DNA from: a virus
IMG/VR virus record: IMGVR_UViG_3300028557_002647
Coordinates: 1 to 40,292 of that record
Length of the DNA stretch: 40,292 nt
Reading direction: 5' to 3' (one strand)
Below are positions 14,434 to 38,881 of this stretch, in pieces (the first letter of the stretch is position 1; each line of letters begins with the position of its first letter). Under the pieces are notes generated by a model, which was given only the letters and a program-made list of their open reading frames with translations, was not told the origin of the DNA and searched no databases. The translations under genes and the position numbers were made by a program.

Positions 14434-14461
14434 ATTATAAGTTAGACCACCAAAATCTCAA
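14434..14461 (-). promoter_or_regulatory. Sigma70 promoter for the DUF366-like gene
   Basis: TTGAGA (14456-14461), 16-nt spacer, TATAAT (14434-14439), then 7 nt to the ATG at 14426. It lies inside the last codons and stop of the small gene upstream. Confidence 0.6.
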
Positions 14462-14644
14462 CCCTAAAATACATGAAATGTTTAGTTCACTTCCAAAATC
14501 ATAGCGCATGTACCAGCAACCAACATTAATATCATTGATATGCATACCATATTTTGAATCTCCTTCATAATCTGTCTTCTTGAAGAAGAGAAGAGATGGA
14601 AGGGTGAGTTCGATTATAAAATTATTAGTACTAATTATTCTCAT
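14435..14644 (-). CDS. Small hypothetical protein
   Basis: 69 residues from the ATG at 14644 (MRIISTNNFII); a TTG at 14683 would add 13 residues. It contains beta-like segments and an aromatic end (LGLRFWWSNL). It is not recognised. It ends 8 nt before the DUF366-like start and its last codons contain the -35 box of that gene. As the first leftward gene from the 14.7-14.9 kb divergent region it may begin the transcript. Confidence 0.45.
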   Translation of the reverse strand: MRIISTNNFIIELTLPSLLFFKKTDYEGDSKYGMHINDINVGCWYMRYDFGSELNISCILGLRFWWSNL

Positions 14645-14737
14645 ATTCAATTTTCGCGCGCATGCACGTACTATGGGTATCAAGTGAAAAGATGTTATCG
14701 AAAGTTATATAAAAGACGTTGTCTAAAGAGAAAGAAA

Positions 14738-14785
14738 AACAGTTGTGAGTTGAGTCAAGCGCGTAACTGTTCCGGCAATTTTTTT
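14738..14785 (+). other. Inverted repeat followed by T-run in the divergent intergenic region
   Basis: The 256-nt gap between 14645 and 14900 holds no convincing gene. Within it, AACAGTT (14738-14744) is the exact reverse complement of AACTGTT (14765-14771), and a run of seven T follows at 14779-14785. This could be a weak rho-independent terminator or the 3' end of a small RNA transcribed rightward. The 20-nt loop makes a strong hairpin uncertain. Confidence 0.3.
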
Positions 14786-14888
14786 CTTTCATTATTATAG
14801 GTTACGTCTTTAAAACCCACAATATATTATAATGAAATTTTTACAAAAATCAACTGGTTTTTTTTTAATTGAATTATTCTTTAAAACT

Positions 14889-14896
14889 CATAAATA
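14889..14896 (+). promoter_or_regulatory. Late promoter box for the portal gene
   Basis: CATAAATA, one base from the T4 late consensus TATAAATA, ends 4 nt before the portal ATG. In T4 the start of transcription lies about 6 nt after the box, which would put it at the start codon. Confidence 0.6.
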
Positions 14897-14900
14897 ACAT

Positions 14901-16727
14901 ATGCCTGAGTATGGAAATGCAGATAGCAGTCGTGAATCAACGTTCGGCCGCTCGTTAATGAATTATGTTAATTCACGCCTGCCATACCAAAGCTATACAG
15001 CTATTGATACAATCAGTAAGCTAAACCCGAAATACAAGGCTTTCCAGGATACAGGGAGTAAGAGAACAGAAGCTCTTGCACGACAGAGCATTAGTAGCAA
15101 TACAGATTATAACAACTTAGATCCATCTGGTATAATTGGTCTGGATAATAACTTCACACAATACATGTATGCAAACATACAACACGACAAAATCTCACGT
15201 TTACGCGATTACCGCACCATGGCATCATTTTCTGAGATAGCAGATGCATTAGATGAAATATGCGATGAAGCTATTAATAGAGATGCACAGGGTAAAGTTG
15301 TTAAACTTGAGTTTCCAGAGCTCGATATCGATGACAAGGACAAAGATACCTTACAAAAAGAATTCCAGAAATACATAAACTACTTTGATCTGCCTCATAG
15401 AGGTTGGGAGTACTTCCGCACTTTGCTTGTTGATGGTGAAATCTATTTTGAACATATTATTCATAAAAGCTATGAAGAGGAAGGTATCCTCGGCATTGTA
15501 ACTATTCCTAATGAATTTGTTGATCCTATCTTTGGTAATGTGCAAAATATGATGATCAAAGGCTTTCTTTTGCGTAAGCCTGTATTTGATAAAACCAACC
15601 CAACTAAGATTTTAGAGTATAAGCTTGTACCTCTTGACAAAAATCAAGTAACTTACATCAATTCGGGCATTTGGAATGAGAATAAGACCATTAGGTTACC
15701 TTTCCTGGAGAATGCACGAAGAGCATATCGTCAGATTAGCTTACTAGAAGATGCAGTGGTTATATATAGACTTGCAAGAGCACCACAACGTCTAGTGTTT
15801 AATGTTGATGTAGGTAATATGCCTGCACCAAAAGCGGAAGCTTATCTAAAGAAATTAATGAATCAATATTGGTCTTCAAAAACCTATGATTCGCAGCAGC
15901 CTGGTAGTGCTGTTAAGAAGTATAACCCACAAAGCATTCTTGATAATTTTTGGTTTGCAAAACGTCAGGGTTCTGAAGGTACAGATGTAAGGCAACTTGA
16001 AGGTGCAAATTCTGCTTGGGGCCTAGAAGAGATGTTGTATTTCTTAAAGAAACTCTATAAGAGTCTCAAGGTACCTGTTTCTCGGTTAAACGCAGACACC
16101 GGATACAAGGATGACATGAATATCTTGCGAGAGGAGTTAAAATTCGCAAAATTTATTGTTCGTATGCAGCAACAATTTTCTGAAGGATTAAAGAACGGAT
16201 TTATTACCCATCTTAAGCTGAAAAACCTTTGGGACAAATATGATCTAAAAGAAAATCATATTGATATAGAGTTTAACGTGCCTGTAAACTTCTTTGAGAT
16301 GAGAGAGGCACAGAAGCAAGAGATTAAGACCAAGACATTTACTGATATTGTAGCTTCTTCTGATACTATTAGTAAAACATATGCTCTTAAGAAATATATG
16401 GACTGGAGCGATATTGAGGTCTTGGCAAATAGAGAGTTCATGAGAAAAGACATGGCTTTTGGTTGGGAGTTAGAGCAAATTAAATCTGGTGGACCGAATT
16501 GGAAAGAAAATGCATTAGCTGCTGCAGCCCCTGCAGGCGGTGAAATGGGTGCAGAAATGGGAGGCGGTGCTGGTGTATCAGGATCGACTCCACCTGCATT
16601 TGGACCTGCACCTAGTGCTGCAGAACCTGCCCCTGCAGGTGACACACCTGCCCCAGGTGGTTTTGGAGCTGCTCCCGCGGGAGCACCTGCAGCTGAAGCA
16701 CCGGGTGCTGCTACGCCGACGGCTTAA
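14901..16727 (+). CDS. Portal vertex protein, T4 gp20-like
   Basis: 608 residues. Clear gp20 family features: an early NNFTQYMYANIQHDKISRLRDYR segment, EIADALDEICDEAI near 115, and the family hallmark DAVVIYRLARAPQ....VFNVDVGNMPAPKAE at about 283-315. Later parts include NADTGYKDDMN...EELKFAKFI, where gp20 homologues bind in the clip/stem. The portal is the dodecameric ring at one capsid vertex that initiates capsid assembly and passes DNA during packaging. After about residue 537 there is a 70-residue tail of Ala, Gly and Pro repeats (APAPAG-like) that is not part of T4 gp20 and is probably disordered. The 3' end overlaps the opposite-strand metallopeptidase gene by 17 nt. Confidence 0.95.
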   Translation: MPEYGNADSSRESTFGRSLMNYVNSRLPYQSYTAIDTISKLNPKYKAFQDTGSKRTEALARQSISSNTDYNNLDPSGIIGLDNNFTQYMYANIQHDKISRLRDYRTMASFSEIADALDEICDEAINRDAQGKVVKLEFPELDIDDKDKDTLQKEFQKYINYFDLPHRGWEYFRTLLVDGEIYFEHIIHKSYEEEGILGIVTIPNEFVDPIFGNVQNMMIKGFLLRKPVFDKTNPTKILEYKLVPLDKNQVTYINSGIWNENKTIRLPFLENARRAYRQISLLEDAVVIYRLARAPQRLVFNVDVGNMPAPKAEAYLKKLMNQYWSSKTYDSQQPGSAVKKYNPQSILDNFWFAKRQGSEGTDVRQLEGANSAWGLEEMLYFLKKLYKSLKVPVSRLNADTGYKDDMNILREELKFAKFIVRMQQQFSEGLKNGFITHLKLKNLWDKYDLKENHIDIEFNVPVNFFEMREAQKQEIKTKTFTDIVASSDTISKTYALKKYMDWSDIEVLANREFMRKDMAFGWELEQIKSGGPNWKENALAAAAPAGGEMGAEMGGGAGVSGSTPPAFGPAPSAAEPAPAGDTPAPGGFGAAPAGAPAAEAPGAATPTA

Positions 16728-17157
16728 TTCGCTTTAATCGCCGCATTACAAATTTTAATTTACGTATCTCATATCTACGTGCATCAATCTCTTCCGGAGC
16801 ATACCAATAACGATCACCTAAATTCATCATATCACGATAAGAATATGAAAACTTAAATTCCATATGCTTAATTTTATACTGTATAAAGTGTCGTAGTTCG
16901 TGTAATAAGTTCCTTATCATTCTGCGAGTTTTTGACGATTTATTCGTTGTATTGGTGTCAACGCCAACATTAATTTCGTTTCTACAAATATCAAACTCGC
17001 TATTTACCCCATTAGAACGAATGTGTATATGGAGAGTTTTATTAGAGGGATAACCTTCCTTATAGCAGAGATAAATTAAAACTTCTTTAAGAGATTTATA
17101 GCAAACACCATATCTCTTAAGCCAAACATGCGCAGGTTTTGAGAAAATTATATTCAT
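16711..17157 (-). CDS. Small HExxH metallopeptidase-like protein
   Basis: 148 residues. LLHELRHFIQY (about 86-96) gives the HExxH zinc motif, and PEEIDARRYE about 27 residues later supplies a plausible third ligand glutamate (EExDA), the arrangement seen in small phage and M78/SprT-like metallopeptidase-type proteins. The N- and C-termini are strongly basic. The substrate is unknown. Upstream lie a GATAAATA late box and the flavin-reductase stop. The last codons overlap antisense with the end of the portal gene, and the reading frame (…RIKPSA, TAG) is preserved through the overlap. Enzymatic activity is inferred only from the motif. Confidence 0.6.
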   Translation of the reverse strand: MNIIFSKPAHVWLKRYGVCYKSLKEVLIYLCYKEGYPSNKTLHIHIRSNGVNSEFDICRNEINVGVDTNTTNKSSKTRRMIRNLLHELRHFIQYKIKHMEFKFSYSYRDMMNLGDRYWYAPEEIDARRYEIRKLKFVMRRLKRIKPSA

Positions 17158-17173
17158 TCAAACCAGTATATAA

Positions 17174-17181
17174 TATTTATC
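17174..17181 (-). promoter_or_regulatory. Late promoter box containing a stop codon
   Basis: GATAAATA on the minus strand; its internal TAA is the stop codon of the flavin reductase gene. It lies 16 nt before the metallopeptidase ATG. Confidence 0.45.
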
Positions 17182-17785
17182 TAAGCCATACTGTAGTTGG
17201 ATCAAAAGCAGAGGTATCAAGAAAATTCCAAACCTGGTAATCCGGCTTTTCTGTAGTCGACGCTTTAATTAAGTTATTCAATAAAGTCTCTAAATCCTCA
17301 ATATGCCATACGTCATCAAGTAGCTTCTTGCCAGAGGTTCTAGATTTGTGGGCAATATGATCTGCATAAGAATATGCAAACCCAGCAAAAGGTGGAACCA
17401 TGCAGCCAAGACTAACAAGGTTACCTAAAATACGAGAACAAACTTCTTTACCCCCAACTGAATGCATAGTTACAATAGCACATGCTGGTTTACCTACAAG
17501 ATATTTTGAGCCTTCAAGAACAGTCATCTTTTCAAAAAGCTGCTGCATTGGTGATCCCCAGCTGTCCCAATATGTACCGGTAGAGAATATTAAACAATCT
17601 GCTTTTTTGATACTTAACTTTACACTATTCCAACTGAAAGAGGGGCTTAGGTGTATAACTCTGACCTTAATACTATTGTCTTCGCTAGACTGCTTAAGCA
17701 GCATGCGTTTAATTTTCTTCAAGAGCATAGAGGTGTTGCCAGCACGTCCGCCAATAGCTCCATTAATAATCAAGACATTTTTCAC
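17177..17785 (-). CDS. NAD(P)H-dependent FMN reductase-like flavodoxin-fold protein
   Basis: 202 residues starting at a GTG. The first strand and phosphate loop (VLIINGAIGGRAGNTSML, residues 4-21) and GTYWDSWGSPMQQLFEKM (about 70-87) match the NADPH-dependent FMN reductase/flavodoxin-like fold, where the first loop binds FMN phosphate and the second contacts the flavin ring. Such enzymes reduce flavins or quinones. The gene follows UDP-galactopyranose mutase by 45 nt on the same strand and has its own promoter (TTGATT-N17-TATACT) ending 6 nt before the GTG. Because the mutase needs reduced FAD, a supporting role is plausible. The C-terminal 50 residues are not recognised. Confidence 0.75.
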   Translation of the reverse strand: MKNVLIINGAIGGRAGNTSMLLKKIKRMLLKQSSEDNSIKVRVIHLSPSFSWNSVKLSIKKADCLIFSTGTYWDSWGSPMQQLFEKMTVLEGSKYLVGKPACAIVTMHSVGGKEVCSRILGNLVSLGCMVPPFAGFAYSYADHIAHKSRTSGKKLLDDVWHIEDLETLLNNLIKASTTEKPDYQVWNFLDTSAFDPTTVWLR

Positions 17786-17791
17786 TACTTC

Positions 17792-17820
17792 AGTATAAAT
17801 GAAGATAGATAAAAAATCAA
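17792..17820 (-). promoter_or_regulatory. Sigma70-like promoter abutting the FMN reductase start
   Basis: TTGATT at 17815-17820, a 17-nt spacer, and TATACT at 17792-17797, ending 6 nt before the GTG at 17785. Predicted transcript start falls on the start codon. Confidence 0.6.
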
Positions 17821-17830
17821 ATGTATTTTA

Positions 17831-18823
17831 TTATGCTATATTTTTTGTCCGAATCATTGCCTGCTTTATCGCCATCCACATATCTAAATATTTGTAGGTA
17901 GCAAGTCTTCCCAAGAACAAAACATTATTTTCACTTTCGGCCATTGGTTTATAGACATTATTATAAAGGGATATACCGCTTCCAAAAGGTATTGGATAGA
18001 AAGGTAAGTTTGTTTCATCGTGCTGCAAAGGAAATTCTTTTGTTATAACTGTTAAGCCTTTGTGTTTATATGTAAAAAAGCTGTGGTCATAAATTCGAGT
18101 AAATTTATTATATGAGTTTGTTTGATTAACAACAACATTAAATTGGCGATCACCCGTTACGGTGTGCTCAAAGCGTAACGATCTATAGGGTAGTCGGCCT
18201 GCACAATAATTAAAATACTCATCAACCTTGCCGGTATAGATTACAAGATCTACATTATATTTCCTCCATTCGCTTATCCCAATACCCGTATGCACAGTTA
18301 TACCGTTAAGCATATTTTTCATCATTTCGGTATAACCGTATTTTGGAATACATTGATATTTTTGATTACCATACCAGGTTGGATCTTGATGTTGTGGAAG
18401 CCGCGGAACTCTGTTAATAATCGAGGAGGGAATATCTTTAAATGACACACCCCATTGTTTTTCTGAGTATTCTCTAAAAAAATATTCAATAATTTCTTCT
18501 TGAGAAAGCTCTCGACCAAGCTGTGTGATTGTCTTCTGACTGTATGGTAGAGACACCATGCCTAAGCGAGAATCGGCATACGGTTTATACTCAAATGGTA
18601 GAAATTCTGTATATTCTGATAAAAATCTATACACCTCTTCATCATTAGTATGAAAGATATGTGGACCATAATTATGCACCATGGTACCACAGACATTACT
18701 ATCATAGCAATTGCCTCCAATATGATTCTTACTCTCAAATACTTCTACATGATGGCCACGTTTTTTTAGTAAAACAGCAGCAGTTATTCCTGATAACCCA
18801 CAACCTATAATATTGATTCTCAT
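17831..18823 (-). CDS. glf: UDP-galactopyranose mutase
   Basis: 330 residues. It opens with the FAD-binding Rossmann motif (IIGCGLSG, residues 5-12) and ESKNHIGGNCYD. The family signature VHNYGPHIFHT follows at about 49-59, and the C-terminus has LFLGRLATYKYLDMWMAI, where the active-site Arg and Tyr of the family occur. The enzyme isomerises UDP-galactopyranose to UDP-galactofuranose, the donor for Galf residues in surface glycans, and works with reduced FAD. It is shorter than typical bacterial forms (about 370-390 aa), mainly in the middle domain. A weak TCAACA-N16-TTAAAT promoter ends 6 nt before the ATG. The gene supports a glycan-modifying island. Confidence 0.93.
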   Translation of the reverse strand: MRINIIGCGLSGITAAVLLKKRGHHVEVFESKNHIGGNCYDSNVCGTMVHNYGPHIFHTNDEEVYRFLSEYTEFLPFEYKPYADSRLGMVSLPYSQKTITQLGRELSQEEIIEYFFREYSEKQWGVSFKDIPSSIINRVPRLPQHQDPTWYGNQKYQCIPKYGYTEMMKNMLNGITVHTGIGISEWRKYNVDLVIYTGKVDEYFNYCAGRLPYRSLRFEHTVTGDRQFNVVVNQTNSYNKFTRIYDHSFFTYKHKGLTVITKEFPLQHDETNLPFYPIPFGSGISLYNNVYKPMAESENNVLFLGRLATYKYLDMWMAIKQAMIRTKNIA

Positions 18824-18829
18824 AGATAC

Positions 18830-18857
18830 ATTTAACTGTATTTACCTTTTCTGTTGA
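18830..18857 (-). promoter_or_regulatory. Weak sigma70-like promoter for the mutase gene
   Basis: TCAACA (18852-18857), 16-nt spacer, TTAAAT (18830-18835), then 6 nt to the ATG. The boxes are poor matches; the reason to list it is the 6-nt spacing shared with better promoters and the overlap of its -35 with that of the divergent gene. Confidence 0.35.
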
Positions 18858-18882
18858 TTTTATCTATAGCATATACTATTAT
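18854..18882 (+). promoter_or_regulatory. Sigma70-like promoter abutting the orphan at 18889
   Basis: TTGATT (18854-18859), 17-nt spacer, TATTAT (18877-18882), then exactly 6 nt to the ATG at 18889. Confidence 0.55.
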
Positions 18883-18888
18883 ATACAA

Positions 18889-19092
18889 ATGGAAAAGTTC
18901 ATAGCGGTTGTAAGAAATATTCATTCTTCTGATAAAAGCCGAAACGTCAAAGTAACAGCGTGGGATCAATGGGAAGCACACAAATTTGCAACTGACAAAT
19001 ATCATCAATATAGAGAGGATATAGTTAGTATTAAAGATAGCCGCAATAACGAAGTTTATAATTTGGAAAAAGGCTTTATTTTTGAAGCTTAA
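18889..19092 (+). CDS. Small hypothetical protein
   Basis: 67 residues, charged and soluble, predicted as strand-helix-strand: 'FIAVVRNI', a helix around 'WDQWEAHKFATDKYHQY', then 'DIVSIKDSRNNEVYNL'. Not recognised. Its sigma70-like promoter ends 6 nt before the ATG, indicating early or middle transcription without a leader. Small phage proteins of this type often inhibit or redirect host functions, but nothing here shows that. Confidence 0.65.
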   Translation: MEKFIAVVRNIHSSDKSRNVKVTAWDQWEAHKFATDKYHQYREDIVSIKDSRNNEVYNLEKGFIFEA

Positions 19093-19109
19093 AAATCATT
19101 TACAGAGAG

Positions 19110-19117
19110 AATAAATA
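19110..19117 (+). promoter_or_regulatory. Late promoter box
   Basis: AATAAATA, 35 nt upstream of the ATG at 19153. A six-codon frame (ATG at 19140) lies in the leader and ends just inside the gene. Confidence 0.4.
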
Positions 19118-19152
19118 ACTAAGACGTAATTTACTAGCAATGAAACTGTTTA

Positions 19153-19374
19153 ATGAATAACGTCAACTTGCTTGTTGTAGATCAAAGCAGTAGCGGGTCA
19201 TATCACGTAAAAATTCTTATTGATTCTAAAGAATCAGGTATTCTGTATTTATCGTCAGACCAATTTAATCTTTTTTCGGCCGGTCTAAAACATATTTGTT
19301 ACGAAAATAATATTTCTTTTCTAGTGGAAAATCCTTTTGATATTGAAGCAGAAGATGACGAAGATTTAGAATAA
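19153..19374 (+). CDS. Small acidic hypothetical protein
   Basis: 73 residues. The body is strand-rich (NLLVVDQ, HVKILIDSK, GILYLSSDQF) and the end is strongly acidic (DIEAEDDEDLE). Not recognised. The stop codon is embedded in the AATAAATA box of the next gene. The acidic tail resembles that of DNA-mimic or adaptor proteins, but the match is only in composition. Confidence 0.6.
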   Translation: MNNVNLLVVDQSSSGSYHVKILIDSKESGILYLSSDQFNLFSAGLKHICYENNISFLVENPFDIEAEDDEDLE

Positions 19375-19377
19375 ATA
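19370..19377 (+). promoter_or_regulatory. Late promoter box containing a stop codon
   Basis: AATAAATA; bases 19372-19374 are the TAA of the preceding gene, and the box ends 7 nt before the ATG at 19385. Confidence 0.55.
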
Positions 19378-19384
19378 TTTGTAT

Positions 19385-19591
19385 ATGAAAAATACGCAGA
19401 CATCCGCAAGAGGATTCTGTGAAGAATTTTCATCACACATCTACGAAGACAAAATTCATAACAGTATTCTGGTAAATGTAGACCAAGAGTGGTACTCCAC
19501 ATTAGATCTCGGTTTACGTAAACGTGGTTATAAGCTTGTGCATGTTACTGAGATGCCAAAAACAAATACTTGTGTTTATAGTAAAGGCTAA
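19385..19591 (+). CDS. Small hypothetical protein
   Basis: 68 residues from the ATG at 19385 (MKNTQTSARGF); the frame extends two codons upstream to a TTG, but the ATG is 7 nt after a late box. The sequence has a central 'ILVNVDQEWYSTLDLGLRKRGYKLVHV' alpha/beta segment. Not recognised. It ends directly against the stop of the convergent aminotransferase fragment. Confidence 0.55.
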   Translation: MKNTQTSARGFCEEFSSHIYEDKIHNSILVNVDQEWYSTLDLGLRKRGYKLVHVTEMPKTNTCVYSKG

Positions 19592-19801
19592 CTAGCTTTT
19601 TGCCAAAATATTGATTAATCTGTAGGCTACTGTATTATCCTTAATACCTGTAATATAAGCTTCCAATAAATTCTTATTGTTATATCCCCAGGTATAGGCA
19701 CTATACCCCAGCTGTAGATCTAGAAATCGCTTCTCATCTGTTTCTACCCAATAGCCTGATGTCTTTTTTATGGTATGCTCAACCGGTGGACGTAGCTGCA
19801 T
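19592..19801 (-). pseudogene. Truncated class III aminotransferase (N-terminal fragment)
   Basis: 69 residues. GYWVETDEKRFLDLQLGYSA followed by G-YNN and an EA helix matches the N-terminal segment of class III PLP-dependent aminotransferases (glutamate-1-semialdehyde aminotransferase type), which normally reads G-x-x-(V/L)-x-D-x-(D/E)-G-x-x-(Y/F)-(I/L)-D. Those enzymes have over 400 residues; here the frame stops at a TAG after the first tenth, and the cofactor-binding and Lys-bearing parts are absent. It starts 1 nt after the SDR stop. Either a remnant of a gene cut by replacement, or a small protein that keeps the fold fragment; catalysis is impossible. Confidence 0.55.
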
Positions 19802-20429: not shown

Positions 20430-20457
20430 TTGATAACTATAAAGGTTCTATTATAAT
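20430..20457 (+). promoter_or_regulatory. Near-consensus sigma70 promoter abutting the nuclease start
   Basis: TTGATA (20430-20435), 16-nt spacer, TATAAT (20452-20457), then 6 nt to the GTG at 20464. Confidence 0.7.
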
Positions 20458-21617: not shown

Positions 21618-21625
21618 CATAAATA
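21618..21625 (+). promoter_or_regulatory. Late promoter box for the fibre/glycan operon
   Basis: CATAAATA ending 6 nt before the ATG at 21632. It is the only promoter-like site I see before the overlapping gene chain that runs to 28465. Confidence 0.6.
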
Positions 21626-21631: not shown

Positions 21632-22180
21632 ATGGCCGTAGCAACAATTTCTGTCAACTTCGCAACTTCATCTGATATTACAACGGGTGCTAGCACTGTA
21701 ACCAGTATTAATCCCGCGCAATTAAGAAATGCTCTAACTAGCGGCGCGACTATGTATGCTCTATCAATTGCCGCGTTAACAACAAATGGTAATCTAGCTG
21801 TAATTGGTGCAGCGACTGCTACAGGCGATATTACAGCCTTCTCCTCTGATAAGCGACTCAAGGATGTTGTAAGTATTATACCCAACGCCCTTGAAAAGGT
21901 AAATTCTATTTCTGGTGTATTATACAAGCATAATGATGTAGCTAAAAAATATGGCTTTACAGAGAACGATCAAAAAGTTGGAGTACTTGCTCAAGAGGTT
22001 CAGGCTGTATTGCCTGAAGTAATTAAACCTGCTCCGTTTGATACAGATGAAAATGGCGCAAGTAAATCTGGTGAAAATTATTTAACTGTTCAATACGAGA
22101 AAATTGTTCCACTATTGATTGAAGCAATCAAGGAACTTAGCAAAAAGGTTGAATTACTAGAACAAGCACGGGGTGAGTAA
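21632..22180 (+). CDS. Fibre protein with C-terminal S74 intramolecular chaperone domain
   Basis: 182 residues. The first 70 are Ala/Thr/Ser-rich fibre-like sequence. The rest is a peptidase S74 domain: FSSDKRLKD (about 70-78) with the Ser-Asp expected at the self-cleavage site, ISGVLYKHN, VGVLAQEVQAVLPE, and YLTVQYEKIVPLLIEAIKEL leading to a coiled coil. S74 domains trimerise fibres and then cut themselves off. Usually they end proteins of 500-1500 residues; here the fibre part is minimal. It is the first gene of the late operon that also holds the glycosyltransferases. Confidence 0.88.
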   Translation: MAVATISVNFATSSDITTGASTVTSINPAQLRNALTSGATMYALSIAALTTNGNLAVIGAATATGDITAFSSDKRLKDVVSIIPNALEKVNSISGVLYKHNDVAKKYGFTENDQKVGVLAQEVQAVLPEVIKPAPFDTDENGASKSGENYLTVQYEKIVPLLIEAIKELSKKVELLEQARGE

Positions 22181-28527: not shown

Positions 28528-28555
28528 TTGAAAGTGCTAGAAATGAGGATAAATT
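28528..28555 (+). promoter_or_regulatory. Sigma70-like promoter before the PhyH-type gene
   Basis: TTGAAA (28528-28533), 16-nt spacer, TAAATT (28550-28555), 8 nt before the ATG at 28564. The -10 is weak. Confidence 0.4.
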
Positions 28556-28563: not shown

Positions 28564-29430
28564 ATGAGTGATTTTTTGTCGAAAATGACTATTAATAGTC
28601 GCCCGGTTGAGGTTTTTGTATCTGCTGATAATATAGCTCCAGGTAAAGATGAAGTGTTGTTTAATATGGATACTACTCCAGTCAGTACTTCTTTGCCATG
28701 GGCAGAAATGGGGTATACCGTACAGGAATTCTTAACACCAGAAAAAAACGAAATAATAAGACAGGGAATCAAGGAAATTATTGTTGATATTTTAAATTCA
28801 ATTGGAGTAGAAACACATGGATTTAAACTTGAAAATTATCATAATTTTGTTGATGATGCAACACATATTAAATTTGCCGATGTAATAAGGTCTGGATCTA
28901 AGGGTACAGGTGGTATCTCTATGGATAAATTTCCTCTTAGTATTAATGAAATAGATGAAAGAATCAGCCAGATATGTGAAACCAAAGTCACAGCCAGGAA
29001 GACATTTGACCTAGGCGATGGAAAGAATTACACTGTACAACACTTTCATCTCAGAGTAGTACGCCCACAGCACTACAAAGACAATAACCCGCCCCACCGT
29101 GATGTGCATCTGGACAGAAACCGTGGCGCGGTGAATCTGTACTTCCCTCTTGCCGGTAGTACAAATGATTCCTCTCTTCCTATTATTCCAGGTAGTCATC
29201 TCTGGTCTGAATCAGAAATAGTACGCACGTATGGAGATACCTATGCAAATGGTGTTAAGTATACTAACCCGGCAACAATCGCTGCAGCGAAAGGTCTTAA
29301 CTTAATTACACCCAACCCTGGACCTGAACAAGTAATGGTATTTACCCCCTACACTATTCACGGTGGTGGTTTTAATTTTAATAAAAATACAACTCGAGTT
29401 TCTCTAGAAATGAGATTTTGGAAAAATTAA
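28564..29430 (+). CDS. 2OG-Fe(II) dioxygenase, phytanoyl-CoA hydroxylase (PhyH) type
   Basis: 288 residues. His178-x-Asp180 (PPHRDVH) is the iron-binding HxD; the distal His is in TPYTIHGGG and the 2-oxoglutarate-binding Arg in TTRVSLEMRFW. LYFPLAG and PIIPGSHLW between them are typical of PhyH-type enzymes. It would hydroxylate a small molecule or a sugar/lipid using O2 and 2-oxoglutarate. It is convergent with the Asp/Asn hydroxylase gene, overlapping by 4 nt. Phages with PhyH-like genes are known; the substrates are not. Confidence 0.82.
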   Translation: MSDFLSKMTINSRPVEVFVSADNIAPGKDEVLFNMDTTPVSTSLPWAEMGYTVQEFLTPEKNEIIRQGIKEIIVDILNSIGVETHGFKLENYHNFVDDATHIKFADVIRSGSKGTGGISMDKFPLSINEIDERISQICETKVTARKTFDLGDGKNYTVQHFHLRVVRPQHYKDNNPPHRDVHLDRNRGAVNLYFPLAGSTNDSSLPIIPGSHLWSESEIVRTYGDTYANGVKYTNPATIAAAKGLNLITPNPGPEQVMVFTPYTIHGGGFNFNKNTTRVSLEMRFWKN

Positions 29431-30125: not shown

Positions 30126-30131
30126 AATATT

Positions 30132-30159
30132 ATTTTAGGGTATTGTTTTTTATTATCAA
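30132..30159 (-). promoter_or_regulatory. Sigma70-like promoter of the Asp/Asn hydroxylase gene
   Basis: TTGATA (30154-30159), 16-nt spacer, TAAAAT (30132-30137), then 6 nt to the ATG at 30125. It interlocks with the opposite promoter. Confidence 0.65.
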
Positions 30160-30170
30160 GACGCTATAAT
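30143..30170 (+). promoter_or_regulatory. Sigma70 promoter of the second glycan operon
   Basis: TTGTTT (30143-30148), 16-nt spacer, TATAAT (30165-30170), then 6 nt to the ATG at 30177. Its -35 lies within the spacer of the leftward promoter. Confidence 0.65.
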
Positions 30171-30176
30171 AAGTTA

Positions 30177-34231: not shown

Positions 34232-35079
34232 ATGCTGCCTTTGTAACAACCTTAGATGACAATTTTGTACCGGGTTATATGGTTGCAGCTTCAACATTAA
34301 TTGCAACAACAGTTAATTTTAATTATGATATTGTTATTTTCGAATGGGGTACACTCAGTGAGGCAAATAAAGAAAAGATAAGACAATTATACCCCCGTAC
34401 AATTTTTAAGCTTATACGTACAGCAGATTACCCAGGAGTTACATATGATACAGAACACCGCATATGGCCGTACAACTGCGGCTATCGATTTGATATATTT
34501 TTACTAAAAGAATACGAAAAAATAATATTTTTTGATTGTGATATTGTTTTTAATATTGATATGACACCTTTAATTTTATCTGATATTAATTTTGGCGCTG
34601 TTCTAAGACCAGCTACACGCATGCTTCAATTTGAAGGTAATATAGGTTTTGCTGCTGGAGTTATGGTTATAGGTAAGCCATTTTTAAGCTCCTCAACTCG
34701 AGATGGTTTAATTGATCTGCTCAAGCAAGGTCCACCAGTAGATGAGAGAGTTTTATCAAAAAAATGGGTTGGCAATGAGCCTATTTTAAACACTTTTTTT
34801 AAAGAAAGGGTCACCTGGCTTCCTAAGCAATATAATTTATGTACTGATGAAGTTGGGTACGGTACCTTAAAGAATATAGTGCCAAATTTACAATATATTG
34901 GGCATAGAAAACCCTGGCACAGCAAGAATATAGCAGATCAATTTGACCCGTATATTATACAAGCATTAACAAAATTAAACGGAAGATCATACGTAGACAT
35001 TTTATTAAAAAAACTATCAAAGTATTTTTTGAGCAAACAACAAAGCACGCAGTTGAGTACCTGTAATTATGACATATAA
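34228..35079 (+). CDS. Glycosyltransferase family 8
   Basis: 283 residues. NAAFVTTLDDNFVPGYMVAASTL is the GT8 start (binding the uridine), Asp103-Cys-Asp105 in IIFFDCDIVF the DxD metal site, and GHRKPWH near 230 the third metal ligand region (H-x-x-x-KPW). GT8 enzymes include LPS galactosyl- and glucosyltransferases (retaining). The N-terminus and length match bacterial LPS GT8 proteins. ATGA overlap with the GT32 gene; 11-nt overlap with the PIG-L-type gene. Confidence 0.88.
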   Translation: MNAAFVTTLDDNFVPGYMVAASTLIATTVNFNYDIVIFEWGTLSEANKEKIRQLYPRTIFKLIRTADYPGVTYDTEHRIWPYNCGYRFDIFLLKEYEKIIFFDCDIVFNIDMTPLILSDINFGAVLRPATRMLQFEGNIGFAAGVMVIGKPFLSSSTRDGLIDLLKQGPPVDERVLSKKWVGNEPILNTFFKERVTWLPKQYNLCTDEVGYGTLKNIVPNLQYIGHRKPWHSKNIADQFDPYIIQALTKLNGRSYVDILLKKLSKYFLSKQQSTQLSTCNYDI

Positions 35080-35743
35080 TAAATCAATGGAAAGAGTTGT
35101 CATAGTGGTTCCTCATGGTGACGATGAGGCTATTGGATTCGCAGGAGCTATACAAAAACATATTCAGGGAGGAGATAATGTTACAGTAATTTTTGCGCGT
35201 GGTGCTGCACCTAATGACCAGAGATCTGAGTATCAGATAGAGTGTACTAGGATAGCCAAAGACATTTTAAAATATCACGATATAAAATACTTACATATAC
35301 CTGAGATTACTATATCAGATAATCCCTTATTACTTTTCCGTGCACTAGAGACTGCTCTCTATGAATTAGACCCCACAATTGTTTATACTACATTCTGGGG
35401 TGATAATCACCAGGATCATCAGATAACATATGATTGCGTATCTAGGCTTATACGTGTGTGGGGTGGGTTAAAGGTGAAGAGATTTTTAGTAGGTGAGATA
35501 GCGAGCTCCACCGATCAATCATTAAAAATACCCCATAACATGTTTGTACCAAATTACTATATCAAACTGTCAGATAAAGAATTCCGTAATAAAGTAAATT
35601 CACTTTTATGCTACACAGGTGAATTAATGAAAGAGCCTCACCCCAGATCAGCAAAAGGTTTAGAAACACTTGCAAGGCTTAGAGGTATGGAGTGTAACTC
35701 AGAATTTGCAGAAGCCTTTATGTGTCTCAGACACATTGCTTAG
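35069..35743 (+). CDS. PIG-L/LmbE family deacetylase
   Basis: 224 residues. PHGDDEAIGFAGAI (His16, Asp18, Asp19) and GDNHQDHQI later supply the zinc ligands of the PIG-L fold (PHPDDE and HxDH). Such enzymes remove N-acetyl groups from amino sugars such as GlcNAc-linked lipids or antibiotics. Together with the GNAT and DegT genes, it suggests modification of amino-sugar acyl groups in the same pathway. An ATG at 35087 (MERVVIVV) is an alternative start. The 3' end overlaps the convergent GT8 gene by 17 nt. Confidence 0.85.
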   Translation: MTYNKSMERVVIVVPHGDDEAIGFAGAIQKHIQGGDNVTVIFARGAAPNDQRSEYQIECTRIAKDILKYHDIKYLHIPEITISDNPLLLFRALETALYELDPTIVYTTFWGDNHQDHQITYDCVSRLIRVWGGLKVKRFLVGEIASSTDQSLKIPHNMFVPNYYIKLSDKEFRNKVNSLLCYTGELMKEPHPRSAKGLETLARLRGMECNSEFAEAFMCLRHIA

Positions 35744-36533
35744 CATACGAATCAAAAATTCTCTTAAGGTTTTCTGCCTCTTTATTTGTATCAGTAGCTA
35801 CTTTGCTCAATTCATCTAATACAAACGGCTCAAAGCATTTTTTAGGGTCATCTGAATGCCATGGTTTAGTGAATCCATGATACTGTATAATATTTGCACT
35901 CTGAAGCATTTTTCCTGTAGCTATTGAACTCACCACATTAAATTCTTGTGGAAGATACTTTACAGTATCTTCGAAGCAGATATTAAAGACAGGTTGATCG
36001 CTAGACCAACTCTTCCGTGACGCTATCCGTATTAGCTTATCTTTATAATACGGTCTGAGAATATTCTTTGATATTGACATTAAACCACAATTGAAGCGCT
36101 CTTTATCTCTAACCTTGGGATCATTAGGACCTATTTCAGGAATACCTAAATGCTTTCTGCAAGAACCAAAATCATAATCATAATTAAACAACTCTGATAT
36201 ATCCTTAAGTACAACCATGTCGGAGTCCAGAATTATAATTCTATTATATCCCAGGTCTCCCATTTCAAAAACATCAAACCTATAGAAAAGATTATAGCCC
36301 CATTGCTCTGTAGTAGGCTTACATCCAGTATAATCATTTTTTTTGGGCTGTAATACTTTGATATGTTTGTATAGTAATTTAACTGATTCTATATTTTCAT
36401 TAGAAAGATTACCATCAGACAGAAGCAAGATATCTCCGTCGAACCAGGGATTAGTCTTAATTAAACTCAGTAAAAATACTTTCATACTAAGAATGAAGTC
36501 GTCATTCAGTGCAAAGAGTAATGCTGTATTCAT
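35727..36533 (-). CDS. Glycosyltransferase family 8 (second)
   Basis: 268 residues. ALLFALNDDFILSMKVFLLSL is the GT8 N-terminus, RIIILDSDMVVLKDI holds the DxD (DSD), and YHGFTKPWH the C-terminal metal ligand motif. It resembles the GT8 at 34228-35079 in layout but is clearly diverged. It is on the opposite strand to both glycan operons and overlaps the PIG-L-type gene tail to tail by 17 nt, so it is expressed separately. No convincing promoter was found for it. Confidence 0.87.
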   Translation of the reverse strand: MNTALLFALNDDFILSMKVFLLSLIKTNPWFDGDILLLSDGNLSNENIESVKLLYKHIKVLQPKKNDYTGCKPTTEQWGYNLFYRFDVFEMGDLGYNRIIILDSDMVVLKDISELFNYDYDFGSCRKHLGIPEIGPNDPKVRDKERFNCGLMSISKNILRPYYKDKLIRIASRKSWSSDQPVFNICFEDTVKYLPQEFNVVSSIATGKMLQSANIIQYHGFTKPWHSDDPKKCFEPFVLDELSKVATDTNKEAENLKRIFDSYAKQCV

Positions 36534-36564
36534 ATGAATTAGTATCTTAATTTAGCTCAGATTC

Positions 36565-36592
36565 TTGATTTTACAAGAAGTTGTACTAAAAT
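36565..36592 (+). promoter_or_regulatory. Sigma70-like promoter abutting the small gene at 36599
   Basis: TTGATT (36565-36570), 16-nt spacer, TAAAAT (36587-36592), then 6 nt to the ATG. Confidence 0.6.
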
Positions 36593-36598
36593 TGCTGA

Positions 36599-36778
36599 AT
36601 GGACGTGTCGACAGTTTTACAGTTTTTTGACTTATCTAAACCATGCCCTAGCTCTATTAAAAACGGAGAAACTCTTCGACAAGCGTTTGTTGAGGAAATT
36701 AACAGTATCTCTGCACAATGCAAGGAATGTGAGCGTATAAAAATTCGTGATAAATACATAAAAATAATTAGATCATGA
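36599..36778 (+). CDS. Small 59-aa CxxC protein
   Basis: MDVSTVLQFFDLSKPCP… to …CKECERIKIRDKYIKIIRS, 59 residues. Not recognised. A CKEC pair sits in a helical, basic C-terminal half, which might bind zinc. Three facts support it as a real gene: a promoter with the 6-nt spacing seen elsewhere, an ATGA overlap with the dehydrogenase gene, and an open frame filling the gap completely. A GATAAATA late box lies inside its last codons. Confidence 0.65.
   Translation: MDVSTVLQFFDLSKPCPSSIKNGETLRQAFVEEINSISAQCKECERIKIRDKYIKIIRS
36749..36756 (+). promoter_or_regulatory. Internal late promoter box
   Basis: GATAAATA within the small gene, 18 nt before the dehydrogenase ATG at 36775; it could give the downstream genes a second, late transcript. 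Confidence 0.35.
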
Positions 36779-37545
36779 AAGTATTAATTGTTGGTCATGG
36801 TTATGTTGGCTCTGCTGTATCTTCTATTTTTAAGAAAGCAGAAAAAATTATTATTGACCCGCGAATTAATAATTTATTAATTACTGACGTTTCGCAAATT
36901 AGCTTTAACGCAGTATTTGTTTGCGTAGATACACCTGCAACTAATAACTTTAAGACTCTTAACAGTGTGCTTTGGCTCCTCGATAAACATATGAAGAAGG
37001 GGACTATTGTCTGCTGCAAGTCTACAGCATCTCCAGCATTTTATGAATGTGCAGAAAAGAGATATAGGAATATACATTTAATTCATAGCCCTGAATATCT
37101 CTCCCACCATTCAAACATACGTGATTTCCAATTACAAAAATTTGCTATTTTTGGAGGGGATCGTCTGGCATGTATTGCTCTATCGAAAGTTTTAAAATCT
37201 AGATTAAGACTTTTAAAGCAAGTAGAATTAACAGATATTAGGACCGCGGCGCTAGTAAAATATGCTGCAAATGGTTTTTTAGCATATAAAATTACTTTTT
37301 TTAATGAGCTATATAACATACATGAGAAATTAAAAATACCAGTATCATATAAAAGGTTAGTCGAGCTTCTAGTATTAGATGAACGTATAGGCCCTTCACA
37401 TACACAGGTACCGGGTAGGGATGGTAAAAGAGGGTGGGGCGGACATTGCTTTGATAAAGACAATTTAGAGTTTGAAAAATTCAGTAAGAGTAAATTAATT
37501 AAGTTTATGAGAAACATTAACAAAGAACACAGGGTGCAAAAATGA
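36775..37545 (+). CDS. Compact UDP-glucose/GDP-mannose dehydrogenase-like enzyme
   Basis: 256 residues. VLIVGHGYVGSAV is the NAD-binding loop (residues 3-15), VFVCVDTPA and KSTASPAF are conserved strands of the nucleotide-sugar dehydrogenase family, AALVKYAANGFLAYKITFFNEL is the central helix, and GGHCFDKDN carries the catalytic Cys225. The C-terminal UDP-binding domain (over 100 residues) is absent. Phage forms of this size are known. The likely product is a uronic acid sugar nucleotide, if it is active. Coupled to the small gene upstream (ATGA) and to the membrane protein downstream. Confidence 0.85.
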   Translation: MKVLIVGHGYVGSAVSSIFKKAEKIIIDPRINNLLITDVSQISFNAVFVCVDTPATNNFKTLNSVLWLLDKHMKKGTIVCCKSTASPAFYECAEKRYRNIHLIHSPEYLSHHSNIRDFQLQKFAIFGGDRLACIALSKVLKSRLRLLKQVELTDIRTAALVKYAANGFLAYKITFFNELYNIHEKLKIPVSYKRLVELLVLDERIGPSHTQVPGRDGKRGWGGHCFDKDNLEFEKFSKSKLIKFMRNINKEHRVQK

Positions 37546-37871
37546 TTGAATACTATCTTTCTGGCTTAGGTGTAACCCTTACAGCATTATTAATATGGTT
37601 TTATAGTCCAATAAAAACAACTTTAGGACAAATTTTTATTAGTAAGAGCATCCATAGCAATGCCGACTTTGAAACAGCATTGCTATTTAAATCACCATTT
37701 TTTGGAAAATTACTTGGCTGCTATATTTGTAGCTCCTTCTGGGGATCTTTGTGTATAGGTGTTAGTTTTTATATAGTTTTTGATTTACCTGCGTATTTCC
37801 CGTTTTTAGCTTGGTTTACCTATCCGAGTGTTGCTTATCTCTATAAGACAGTGATCGATAAGAATAAATAA
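37542..37871 (+). CDS. Small membrane protein with CxxC (DUF1360-like)
   Basis: 109 residues with an N-terminal membrane segment (about 7-22), a soluble linker, GCYICSSFWGS, and two hydrophobic segments (about 70-100). The (G)-C-x-x-C-x-S-FW-x-S pattern next to a membrane helix is like small DUF1360-type membrane proteins. Function unknown. ATG overlaps the dehydrogenase stop (ATGA), so it may anchor or assist a glycan step at the inner membrane. Confidence 0.6.
   Translation: MIEYYLSGLGVTLTALLIWFYSPIKTTLGQIFISKSIHSNADFETALLFKSPFFGKLLGCYICSSFWGSLCIGVSFYIVFDLPAYFPFLAWFTYPSVAYLYKTVIDKNK
37863..37870 (+). promoter_or_regulatory. Late promoter box overlapping a stop codon
   Basis: AATAAATA spans the last codons of the membrane protein gene and part of its TAA; it ends 4 nt before the ATG at 37875. 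Confidence 0.5.
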
Positions 37872-37874
37872 TAT

Positions 37875-38210
37875 ATGAGCAATTTTTGGCAGCCAAAAAT
37901 AGATCGTTGGCTTGAGAGCGTCAATGTTAATAATACAGCAGCGTTTTCCACTAGCTATCAGTATGCTCCCAATGAAGGAGAAGAGGGTAAGCACAAAATG
38001 CATATCAGTGGTGTTGGCACCATGACACTTGAACAATTGAGAGACAAGATAAAGGACAAACTCAGCACTCTTGCTGGTGCAGCAGATTCTGAAGATCTTG
38101 GCAGTATGGAGCAAGTTTATCACGAATTATTCACTTCACCAGAACTTAACAATCTTCTTAAACAATACACAGAAATTCTGAGAAAGATTAAAGCAAGTAA
38201 GATTGCTTAA
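37875..38210 (+). CDS. Hypothetical protein
   Basis: 111 residues, soluble. N-terminal part MSNFWQPKIDRWLESVNV, a middle with HKMHISGVGTMTLEQLRDKIKDKLSTLAGAA and a helical C-terminus (SPELNNLLKQYTEILRKIK). Not recognised. Expressed from a late-type box. Together with the next small gene it forms a short unit before the phosphoribosyltransferase. Confidence 0.6.
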   Translation: MSNFWQPKIDRWLESVNVNNTAAFSTSYQYAPNEGEEGKHKMHISGVGTMTLEQLRDKIKDKLSTLAGAADSEDLGSMEQVYHELFTSPELNNLLKQYTEILRKIKASKIA

Positions 38211-38218
38211 TTTAATCT

Positions 38219-38398
38219 ATGTCTACAGGTAAGGCAAAGACTAAGATTACCGCGGACTTTGTATTAGATGTATACGAGCGGAGCAAAAGAGCTAAAGGCA
38301 AGGCAGCAGCAGATCTTCTACAAACAACGATTACTCTCAGCAAACATTTAAACGAATGGCTGGTTATCTCTGATGTTCTGTTAAAGAAAAAACCTTGA
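38219..38398 (+). CDS. Small basic 59-aa protein
   Basis: MSTGKAKTKITADFVLDVYERSKRAKGKAAADLLQ… to …LLKKKP. 59 residues, basic, predicted helical (DFVLDVYERSKRA, LSKHLNEWLVISDVL). Not recognised. It starts 8 nt after the previous stop, and its TGA stop is part of the TTGAAA -35 box of the next gene. The composition would allow nucleic-acid binding, without further support. Confidence 0.55.
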   Translation: MSTGKAKTKITADFVLDVYERSKRAKGKAAADLLQTTITLSKHLNEWLVISDVLLKKKP

Positions 38399-38422
38399 AA
38401 TTTTGATAGTGCTGGGTATTAT
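38395..38422 (+). promoter_or_regulatory. Sigma70-like promoter abutting the phosphoribosyltransferase start
   Basis: TTGAAA (38395-38400), 16-nt spacer, TATTAT (38417-38422), then 6 nt to the ATG at 38429. Confidence 0.6.
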
Positions 38423-38428
38423 GGTTAG

Positions 38429-38881
38429 ATGCCCGAAAAACTGTATTTAAGTTGGGAAGATATTCATCAATTAACATCAAAAATTCACAACGAAACCTTA
38501 GGTTTGGATAATGGAAATTTAGCTATTATAGGTATCAGCCGCGGCGGGCTGGTACCAGCGGTGCTAATGTCACATATGAAAAATCCTTCTTTATTTTGTA
38601 CTGTTGGAATAAAGAGCTATGAAGGTGAAGAAAGAAAGCAGGATCAGATATATCAGCTACCCCCTAAGGAGCTTTTGCAAAATAAAGACGTTATCTATCT
38701 TATTGATGATATATGTGATACAGGTAAAACCCTGTTAAATTTAAAAGAAAATATGTTGCATCTAAATGTAATTTCCATTAGTCTAGTATATAAGAAGAAT
38801 GAACTACACAAGCCAGATTATTATGGGTTTGAACATTCGGACGACAAGTGGGTGGTTTTTCCGTGGGAAAGCCATAAATAA
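38429..38881 (+). CDS. Phosphoribosyltransferase (PRTase, type I)
   Basis: 150 residues. IGISRGGLVPAVLM is the first PRTase loop and VIYLIDDICDTGKTL (about 88-101) the PRPP-binding motif with its two Asp and DTGKT. Size and layout match purine salvage enzymes such as xanthine/hypoxanthine phosphoribosyltransferase (Gpt-like). It could salvage purines for phage DNA, but the base specificity is not readable. The stop codon is inside a CATAAATA late box. Confidence 0.82.
   Translation: MPEKLYLSWEDIHQLTSKIHNETLGLDNGNLAIIGISRGGLVPAVLMSHMKNPSLFCTVGIKSYEGEERKQDQIYQLPPKELLQNKDVIYLIDDICDTGKTLLNLKENMLHLNVISISLVYKKNELHKPDYYGFEHSDDKWVVFPWESHK
38873..38880 (+). promoter_or_regulatory. Late promoter box before the cell-wall hydrolase genes
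   Basis: CATAAATA overlapping the PRTase stop; the ATG of the 3D-domain gene lies 51 nt downstream, so this transcript would have a leader of about 45 nt. Confidence 0.5.

Follow-up and report, generated by a model that had tools for sequence, protein, structure and literature searches.

Promoters set against start codons in an uncultured group of T4-type phages, with a predicted leaderless layout

In an uncultured group of T4-type phages, represented by a 40,292-nt fragment of a viral genome (IMG/VR record IMGVR_UViG_3300028557_002647, hereafter the window) and its relatives, many promoters lie directly against the start codon, a layout unlike that of T4 and nearly all related phages examined. 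Two promoter classes, sigma70-type sites and T4-type late boxes, share this arrangement across the clade. Judged from the DNA alone, these are very probably real promoters, positioned to give a predicted 5' end that coincides with the first base of the start codon or falls only a few nt away from it. A leaderless layout had been predicted in the earlier note, and it is the best reading of the 6-nt peak, the dependence on the -35 box and its spacing, the concentration at operon heads, the scarcity of Shine-Dalgarno (SD) words at those heads and the match with phage phiYS40; leaderless mRNAs would be the usual layout among the detectable promoters.

We re-read one by one the sigma70-type promoters listed in the earlier note. 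The seven said to lie exactly 6 nt from the start codon all do so (7/7), with a TTG-type -35, a TA...T -10 and a spacer of 16–17 nt, and two of the genes, 17785(-) and 20464(+), do start with GTG. Two looser sites hold with gaps of 7 nt for 14426(-) and 8 nt for 28564(+), and a weak promoter proposed for 18823(-) was rejected, its best score within 70 nt upstream being -1.3 against a threshold of 9 for a matrix trained on relatives. The sites are given as -35, spacer length, -10, gap and start codon:

14434–14461, minus strand: TTGAGA-16-TATAAT-7-ATG, start 14426; 196-aa gene without PHROG match
17792–17820, minus strand: TTGATT-17-TATACT-6-GTG, start 17785; FMN-reductase-like gene (17177–17785)
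18854–18882, plus strand: TTGATT-17-TATTAT-6-ATG, start 18889; 67-aa gene without PHROG match
20430–20457, plus strand: TTGATA-16-TATAAT-6-GTG, start 20464; exonuclease (PHROG_298 / PD-(D/E)XK)
28528–28555, plus strand: TTGAAA-16-TAAATT-8-ATG, weaker site with a weak -10, start 28564; PhyH-like gene
30132–30159, minus strand: TTGATA-16-TAAAAT-6-ATG, start 30125; Asp/Asn hydroxylase-like gene
30143–30170, plus strand: TTGTTT-16-TATAAT-6-ATG, start 30177
36565–36592, plus strand: TTGATT-16-TAAAAT-6-ATG, start 36599; 59-aa gene, followed by a UDP-glucose dehydrogenase-like gene
38395–38422, plus strand: TTGAAA-16-TATTAT-6-ATG, start 38429; phosphoribosyltransferase-like gene

The promoters of 30125(-) and 30177(+) overlap within a 51-nt divergent spacer, into which leaders would not fit. 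The class has the -35 and -10 hexamers and the spacer near 17 nt of sigma70 promoters, and its consensus is TTGATT-16-TATAAT followed by 6 nt to A/GTG; 16 nt was the optimum in a scan of nearby spacer lengths and is found in 32 of the 58 matrix training sites, for which lengths of 15–18 nt were allowed. These promoters would be read by a sigma factor of the host sigma70 type, and in the window they precede metabolic, nuclease and sugar genes, which probably indicates early timing.

The abutment of promoters and starts extends beyond the sites first listed, since late boxes (ATAAATA or CTAAATA) also adjoin starts in the window, at gaps of 4–9 nt. The boxes and two of the genes behind them are:

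5385–5392, minus strand: late box AATAAATA, 6 nt to ATG at 5378
10949–10956, minus strand: late box TATAAATA, 9 nt to ATG at 10939; gene with a weak tail-fibre match (PHROG_9729, E 1.5e-5)
12151–12158, minus strand: late-box variant ACTAAATA, 6 nt to ATG at 12144
12179–12382, minus strand: ribosomal protein bS21, 67 aa (PF01165, 29.8 bits, cut-off 27; PHROG_21469, E 8.7e-6)
12392–12399, minus strand: late box TATAAATA, 9 nt to ATG at 12382, the bS21 gene
14889–14896, plus strand: T4-type late box CATAAATA, 4 nt to ATG at 14901, the portal gene
14901–16727, plus strand: portal protein (PHROG_213, E 2.4e-98)
19370–19377, plus strand: late box AATAAATA, 7 nt to ATG at 19385
21618–21625, plus strand: late box CATAAATA, 6 nt to ATG at 21632; structural-type gene, by eye only
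37863–37870, plus strand: late box AATAAATA, 4 nt to ATG at 37875

Gaps of 7–9 nt would leave a leader of 1–4 nt. The portal, the tail-fibre-like gene and bS21, putatively late genes, stand behind boxes of the T4 late type, and 297 ATAAATA boxes were counted in 603 kb of the clade. Their sigma factor is presumably the phage-encoded gp55, a gene for which is present in the large relative G001 (L049 4060–4677(-), PHROG_234, E 1.8e-24).

The clade was defined by the portal protein, and the 603-kb pooled set comprises the window and six relatives of common ancestry (portals 75–83% identical to that of the window), so that the sites counted in it are not fully independent. Scanning for TTGA-N17-19-TA...T with no gene calls, and requiring that the ATG open at least 50 codons, we found a peak of TTGA-N18-TA...T sites exactly 6 nt before the frame-opening ATG (40 sites in the pooled clade), against 0–2 sites at gap 6 for each wrong spacing (12–16 and 20–26). 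Shuffled -35 words (AGTT, GTTA, TAGT and AAGT) gave 1–3 sites in the pooled clade versus 54 for TTGA. By record, gap-6 sites made up 27/309 in G001 (0.7 expected), 9/158 in G002 (0.3), 9/117 in G005 (0.4) and 5/44 in the window (0.1 expected at random positions); G009, G012 and G013 have only 1–2 at exactly 6 nt, with five at 7 nt in G009. The bare pattern ending in N6-ATG, open frame not required, exceeded its reverse by 32 to 5 in G001 and 12 to 0 in G002; the 9 versus 1 sites in T4 are read as chance, because not one of them remains at gap 6 once an open frame is required. The distance distribution is thus sharply peaked; a flat one, which the earlier note named as refuting its proposal, was not observed.

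Start-abutting promoters also stood far above dinucleotide shuffles of the upstream regions, the comparison proposed at the outset. In a held-out test, a matrix trained only on G001 and G002 placed them at 10/26 operon heads of the window (shuffles 0.4) and at 65/139 heads of G005, G009, G012 and G013 (shuffles 2.6). For sigma70 matches at gap 5–7 the window count was 6/26 heads versus 0.00 per shuffled set (30 sets), and all 7 window heads with a sigma70 match have it at gap 6–8. Matches lay 4–9 nt from the start at 7/7 such heads in the window, 41/46 in the four other relatives and 67/81 in the two training records. With the training records included, the class at gap 5–7 was about five times commoner at heads (89/399) than at other genes (15/338). 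Late boxes fell 3–8 nt from a start in 102/297 cases in the pooled clade, mostly at 4–6 nt, against 0/65 in T4; twenty permuted 7-mers did so on average in 4.8%, the highest (TAAATAA, 24.7%) overlapping the late box itself. About half of the operon heads (52–62%) lack an abutting promoter above the chosen threshold, and leadered genes may be common too; a few late boxes lie 27–57 nt upstream.

SD words were found at 25/399 operon heads of the clade (6%), counting all heads with or without an abutting promoter; this equals the control stretch and compares with 63% in T4. Tight internal genes have such words in 67/277 cases (24%) versus 10% in the control. In the predicted layout, the first cistron of an operon behind an abutting promoter would open a leaderless mRNA, with its 5' AUG or GUG recognised without SD pairing, and host ribosomes would have to accept such mRNAs; genes within operons retain a weak SD signal.

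Phage bS21 may itself be the cause, displacing host bS21 and turning ribosomes to leaderless mRNAs, with layout and gene having co-evolved; we regard this as unlikely, and any bS21 role in the layout is a guess, because a sister group appears to show the same arrangement while lacking bS21. In its favour, bS21 is above the PF01165 cut-off in 14/15 clade records, and 11/16 distinct copies have a TAAATA word in the 24 nt upstream of the ATG. Of 22 named T4-type records, bS21 scores above the cut-off only in HTVC008M, Mosig and Melnitz, and the first two show an excess of abutting late boxes, Melnitz weakly. Phage bS21 has been proposed to retune ribosomes late in infection (Chen et al. 2022, PMC9723584). 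However, sister-group fragments (portal 48–52% identity) have late boxes near starts, at gaps 6–9 in 3/6 (L035), 2/4 (L036), 1/3 (L039) and 2/6 (L130) cases, and in L039 another gene occupies, by eye, the expected place of bS21, where a simple motif scan did not see it. Moreover, the box before bS21 is late-type, yet genes of the sigma70 type would be leaderless too; the association covers two lineages only; and the 60 nt before the bS21 gene of HTVC008M contain no ATAAATA word. A wider proposal is likewise unlikely: that a T4-type clade rebuilt its whole expression programme, early host-sigma and late gp55 promoters alike, for leaderless mRNAs. Under it, a phage-encoded bS21 inserted beside the anti-SD of the host ribosome would reinforce the change, so that late in infection leaderless phage mRNAs outcompete the leadered ones of the host, and the HTVC008M/Mosig/Melnitz lineage would have taken this step independently.

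That the promoters are real but serve short functional leaders, or that annotated starts are wrong and translation begins downstream, appears very unlikely. Gaps of 7–9 nt do occur, starts were chosen by rule, and ATGATG is present at 11/111 sigma70-abutting starts. A promoter-blind, codon-based gene caller favoured the downstream codons 17527 over 17785 and 12138 over 12144, and left the 59-aa gene at 36599 uncalled. Nevertheless, for 7/9 window genes with a sigma70 promoter it picked the codon next to that promoter, and in G001 the gene corresponding to that at 17785 (L043 4890–5492) begins at the equivalent codon. Both ATG and GTG are enriched exactly at gap 6 (10 GTG sites versus 0–4 at every other gap between 0 and 19) and TTG is not (0 sites in the pooled clade), which fits a transcript whose first base is a purine at that position; start sites upstream of the -10 box are impossible.

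A/T-rich or unstructured entry elements have been proposed for SD-poor bacteria, and the boxes could be ribosome-entry elements of this kind in a genome without SD words, rather than promoters. The SD-less heads fit this, A/T-rich 6-mers, ATAATA and TAAATA among them, are the top words near starts, tight genes included, and abutting boxes occur at non-head genes as well (3/22 in the window, 27/121 elsewhere). Translation would not need TTGA at a fixed distance, however, nor does it account for the concentration of the sigma70 class at heads, and the late box is a T4-type promoter word in a clade with gp55 in G001; we consider this reading highly improbable. Chance alignment, although TA...T words arise easily in A/T-rich upstream DNA, is refuted by the controls: the pattern was reproduced neither by dinucleotide shuffles nor by permuted words or wrong spacings, and T4, equally A/T-rich (35% GC, as G001), has no peak in the open-frame test.

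The predicted leaderless layout has several implications. Discussions of leaderless initiation usually treat it as a property of the host, and the layout makes a prediction about the host ribosomes. The host is possibly a member of Verrucomicrobiota, a weak lead. A Bacteroidetes host was considered as well: a Chitinophagaceae MAG holds a 48%-identical relative, but this MAG does not have the promoter spacing (63 sites versus 70 in the control), and G001 carries PEP-CTERM and pseudopilin-like genes. With sigma70-type and late promoters both against starts in a T4-type lineage, the gp55 late system itself can apparently be re-spaced. Abutting promoters offer a sequence rule for true start codons, which SD-expecting gene callers may misplace here, and the co-occurrence of bS21 suggests a testable mechanism by which a phage could bias ribosomes.

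The clade has the gp20 portal (PHROG_213) and core genes of T4-type phages, and 38/294 called proteins of G001 have a counterpart in one or more of six T4-type records, among them polymerase, UvsX and gp41 helicase (all three by Syn9 annotation) and the portal. Like T4 and its relatives (Straboviridae, Kyanoviridae), it shares the portal, core replication genes, a gp55-type late sigma and the ATAAATA box. Unlike in the clade, 29/55 late boxes of T4 lie at a distance of 13–35 nt, and an SD word usually separates box and start; such leadered late mRNAs, a trait of known members and not of membership, are not the pattern of the clade. A TATAAT-like -10 at gap 6 is the highest bin in the clade (56/397 heads), compared with 0/115 in T4, 1/81 in Syn9, 1/108 in Cr30 and 3/56 in HTVC008M. 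The claim that abutment is not a T4-like standard stood for 19/22 named T4-type records and gave way for HTVC008M, Mosig and, weakly, Melnitz. These bS21-encoding Pelagibacter/Methylophilales myophages have late boxes at exactly 5 nt (8/42, 6/54 and 3/42, respectively) and, unlike the clade, show abutment in only part of them; Melnitz did not exceed the best permuted word, and HTVC008M has no sigma70-abutting peak and has SD words at 30/56 heads. The open-access PMC text considered, mostly abstracts, reports no start-abutting late promoters in T4-type phages.

Bacteroidetes-type promoters differ from the TTGA/TATAAT promoters of the clade. Freshwater Bacteroidetes phages resemble the window in encoding bS21 near the portal and other structural genes (Chen et al. 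2022, PMC9723584). Searching IMG/VR with the bS21 of the clade gave 36 loci at 61–100% identity, 29 of them on contigs that the portal search had also recovered. Leaderless genes of Actinobacteria and Deinococcus-Thermus are described, in Zheng 2011 (PMC3160421) and Zhong 2025 (PMC12340547), as having a TA-like -10 about 12 nt before the start and no ribosome-binding site; the clade shares both, with TA...T at that distance (gap 6) and no SD enrichment at heads, and differs in that its members are T4-type viruses whose promoters have a strong -35 and stand beside a second, late class of the phage type. Leaderless phage mRNAs are not new in themselves: the AR9 paper (PMC5312081) states that phage transcripts "are often leaderless", and according to a review (PMC3594737) most middle and late mRNAs of phiYS40 are leaderless, with IF2 rising and IF3 falling. 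The IF3_C domain was absent from the six clade records searched and from phiYS40. This large phage infects Thermus, of a phylum rich in leaderless genes, and differs from the clade in having SD words at 40% of heads versus 7%, the clade in turn having core genes of the T4 type and, beside the sigma70 class, late boxes of that type that adjoin starts. In the same pipeline 10/88 of its heads have the -10 box at gap 6, the highest bin and the same spacing as in the clade, and within the sources available phiYS40 is the nearest precedent.

The window, a 40,292-base IMG/VR record of an uncultured T4-type phage, has a portal protein that matches 2481 phage records, the best-ranked of them at 31% identity. 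IMG/VR yielded 39 relatives, one of them in G001, a record of 229,717 bases in which 38 of the 294 called proteins have a match in one or more of six T4-type records. The gp55-type late sigma factor of G001 was located by its position beside what we take to be the gp46/47 homologues, and PHROG then confirmed it. The window also carries two sugar genes, for a UDP-galactopyranose mutase (17831-18823, minus strand; GLF, E 3.4e-50) and a UDP-glucose dehydrogenase-like protein (36775-37545).

14901-16727, portal protein of the window (PHROG_213, E 2.4e-98)
L049 4060-4677, gp55-type late sigma factor of G001 (PHROG_234, E 1.8e-24)

The earlier note had described seven sigma70-type promoters in the window that end 6 nt before a start codon, and re-reading the sites bore out all of them, the spacers being 16 or 17 nt long. 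Two looser promoters, with gaps of 7 nt at 14426(-) and 8 nt at 28564(+), were borne out as well, and a weak one claimed at 18823(-) was rejected by its score. A promoter-blind gene caller picked the abutting codon in seven of the nine genes with sigma70 promoters, the exceptions being a start at 17527 favoured over 17785 and a 59-aa gene at 36599 left uncalled. Genes behind these promoters include a reductase, a nuclease, a hydroxylase and a phosphoribosyltransferase gene, and a small gene followed by the UDP-glucose dehydrogenase-like one. One divergent pair leaves no room for leaders, since two complete promoters fill the space between its start codons.

30126-30176, divergent spacer between 30125(-) and 30177(+), 51 nt between start codons, two complete overlapping promoters

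The note had also proposed that the distance from promoter to start codon be measured against chance, and in several scans it peaks at exactly 6 nt. A gene-call-free scan took every TTGA-N17-19-TA...T site and its distance to the nearest ATG opening a frame of at least 50 codons. At 6 nt lie 27 of the 309 sites of G001, where random positions would give 0.7. The relative G002 has 9 of 158 (0.3 at random positions), G005 has 9 of 117 (0.4) and the window 5 of 44 (0.1); G009, G012 and G013 have just 1, 2 and 1 such sites. These seven records form the pooled clade (603 kb, in which genes at the borders of 20-kb pieces may be lost); G003, G004, G006-G008, G010, G011 and G014, near copies or not retrieved in full, are absent from the pooled statistics. 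In the pool, 40 sites at gap 6 come from TTGA-N18, 6 from N17 and 8 from N19, and each wrong spacing (N12-N16, N20-N26) yields 0-2. With TTGA as the -35 word the count is 54, with each of four shuffled words 1-3. The best spacer of the clade promoters is 16 nt, the usual one for E. coli sigma70 being 17 nt.

A promoter matrix trained on G001 and G002 was applied to the other records with dinucleotide shuffles as control. It placed promoters at gaps of 5-7 nt before 6 of the 26 operon-head genes of the window, against 0.00 in shuffles, and before 32 of the 139 heads of G005, G009, G012 and G013, against 0.47. A cruder scan, which required no open frame, found 32 sites in G001 and 12 in G002, against 5 and 0 for the reversed pattern; the same scan found 2 against 2 in Syn9 and 9 against 1 in T4, but none of those T4 sites withstands the requirement for an open frame at gap 6.

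The list in the earlier note held the sigma70 class only, and the T4-type late box ATAAATA abuts start codons too. In the pooled clade, 102 of 297 late boxes are followed, 3-8 nt on, by an ATG that opens a long frame, with a peak at 4-6 nt; permuted 7-mers (n = 20) average 4.8%, the highest of them, TAAATAA at 24.7%, overlapping the late box itself. The T4 late box spans -13 to -6, so that a gap of 5 nt would make transcription begin at the start codon. Late boxes of the window stand before the genes of the portal, a tail-fibre-like protein and ribosomal protein bS21, among others. When both classes are combined, 10 of 26 heads in the window have an abutting promoter (0.4 in shuffles), as do 65 of 139 in G005, G009, G012 and G013 (2.6 in shuffles) and 112 of 234 in the training records G001 and G002 (3.6 in shuffles), which leaves about half of the heads without one at the threshold used. 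For non-head genes the counts are 3 of 22, 27 of 121 and 43 of 195, respectively.

Shine-Dalgarno-like words precede 25 of 399 clade heads (6%), a level equal to that of an upstream control stretch. Tight internal genes have them in 67 of 277 cases (24%), the control figure being 10%; in the same count T4 has them at 63% of heads and 62% of tight internal genes. At gap 6 the pooled clade shows an enrichment of GTG starts (10 sites, where each of the other gaps from 0 to 19 has 0-4) but not of TTG starts (0 sites), as would follow from a need of the polymerase for a purine at this position. Of 111 sigma70-abutting starts 11 are a tandem ATGATG, and of 277 tight starts 4 (p 3e-4, a post hoc value for a pattern noticed before it was tested), and 10 of these 11 belong to G001 and G002. 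Four of the 11 carry AGGAG within the promoter-to-ATG gap, where it would fall outside the transcript if the start site is as predicted. Loci L052 and L053, from G001 and G002, hold clustered small genes whose TTGACT..TATAAT promoters are alike, with AGGAG-like gaps in some and with tandem ATGATG starts.

The promoter observation is confirmed and widened. A leaderless architecture, as the note had proposed, is by far its best explanation, and we hold it very likely, with start sites that are predicted from the promoters. Leaderless phage genes are already known, and are called frequent in one paper (PMC5312081); what appears to be new is that in a T4-type clade the promoters of both classes abut the start codons.

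We also considered bS21, whose gene lies behind a late box in the window.

12179-12382, minus strand, bS21 ribosomal protein gene

The protein exceeds the Pfam cut-off in 14 of 15 clade records, the window included; the remaining one, G013, stops about 1.4 kb upstream of the portal gene, short of the expected place. A TAAATA word lies within 24 nt before the ATG in 11 of the 16 distinct bS21 copies listed, and a scan of IMG/VR with the clade bS21 gave 36 loci, of which 29 lie on contigs known from the portal search. Of the 22 named T4-type records, just three exceed the cut-off for bS21: HTVC008M, Mosig and Melnitz. The matches in Thanatos-1 and Atu_ph04 are weaker and fall below it. This co-occurrence is suggestive because bS21 sits at the anti-Shine-Dalgarno (PMC9723584). 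A causal role is weakened by fragments of a sister group (portal 48-52% identical) among loci L002-L040 and L130, which were gone through individually: late boxes lie near starts in L035, L036, L039 and L130, and L039 has another gene in the expected place of bS21, by eye, and no bS21 by a simple motif scan. L038, also of this group, has no box of the scanned form; L028, L029, L034 and L038 hold 1, 3, 0 and 0 late boxes, none with a close start. We therefore take bS21 as a possible aid to the layout, not its cause. No IF3 was found in the phages searched, six clade records and phiYS40.

As for the host, G001 encodes PEP-CTERM proteins, one over the Pfam cut-off and two others over that of NCBIfam, and two pseudopilin-like proteins, one with a prepilin motif over its cut-off. 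They are paired in two clusters, unexpected in a T4-type phage.

L041 12880-14327, minus strand, pseudopilin-like/PEP-CTERM cluster of G001
L051 7082-8298 and 9860-10510, minus strand, pseudopilin-like/PEP-CTERM cluster of G001

This combination is associated with Verrucomicrobiota and Planctomycetota. Akkermansia and bacterium IMCC26134 of Verrucomicrobiota count as scarce in Shine-Dalgarno sequences in one survey (PMC10783764). Both phyla are leads only. Pseudopilin P0001 has no match in the GTDB genome collection or in plasmids, and simple patterns for pseudopilin or PEP-CTERM genes found none on the other clade contigs. Portal alignment to the GTDB collection gave one 48%-identical contig (L130), binned, perhaps wrongly, with a Chitinophagaceae MAG, which was not accepted as host as it is without the promoter spacing of the clade (63 sites, 70 in the control).

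The Thermus phage phiYS40, whose middle and late mRNAs are leaderless according to a review (PMC3594737), shares the 6-nt peak of the clade (10 of 88 heads at gap 6), in contrast to T4 (0 of 115), Syn9 (1 of 81), Cr30 (1 of 108) and HTVC008M (3 of 56). For the late box we surveyed 19 T4-type records, 13 of them, plus metaG-MbCM1, over 60 kb only. In 18 of the 19, the distance from an [ACT]ATAAATA box to a start is 3-10 nt in 6 of 308 cases and 11-45 nt in 145, and in the 60 kb of metaG-MbCM1 none of 15 ATAAATA boxes lies at 3-8 nt. The exceptions are HTVC008M, Mosig and Melnitz (L098-L104, L265-L278), isolated marine myophages in which 8, 6 and 3 late boxes, respectively, lie exactly 5 nt from the start; 80 relatives of the HTVC008M portal and pieces L329-L333 lie outside the analysis. 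Melnitz is the weakest of the three, with 3 of 42 boxes at gap 5 and a share at 3-8 nt (7%) under that of its best permuted word (9%). These three phages offer cultured systems in which leaderless late transcription could be tested.
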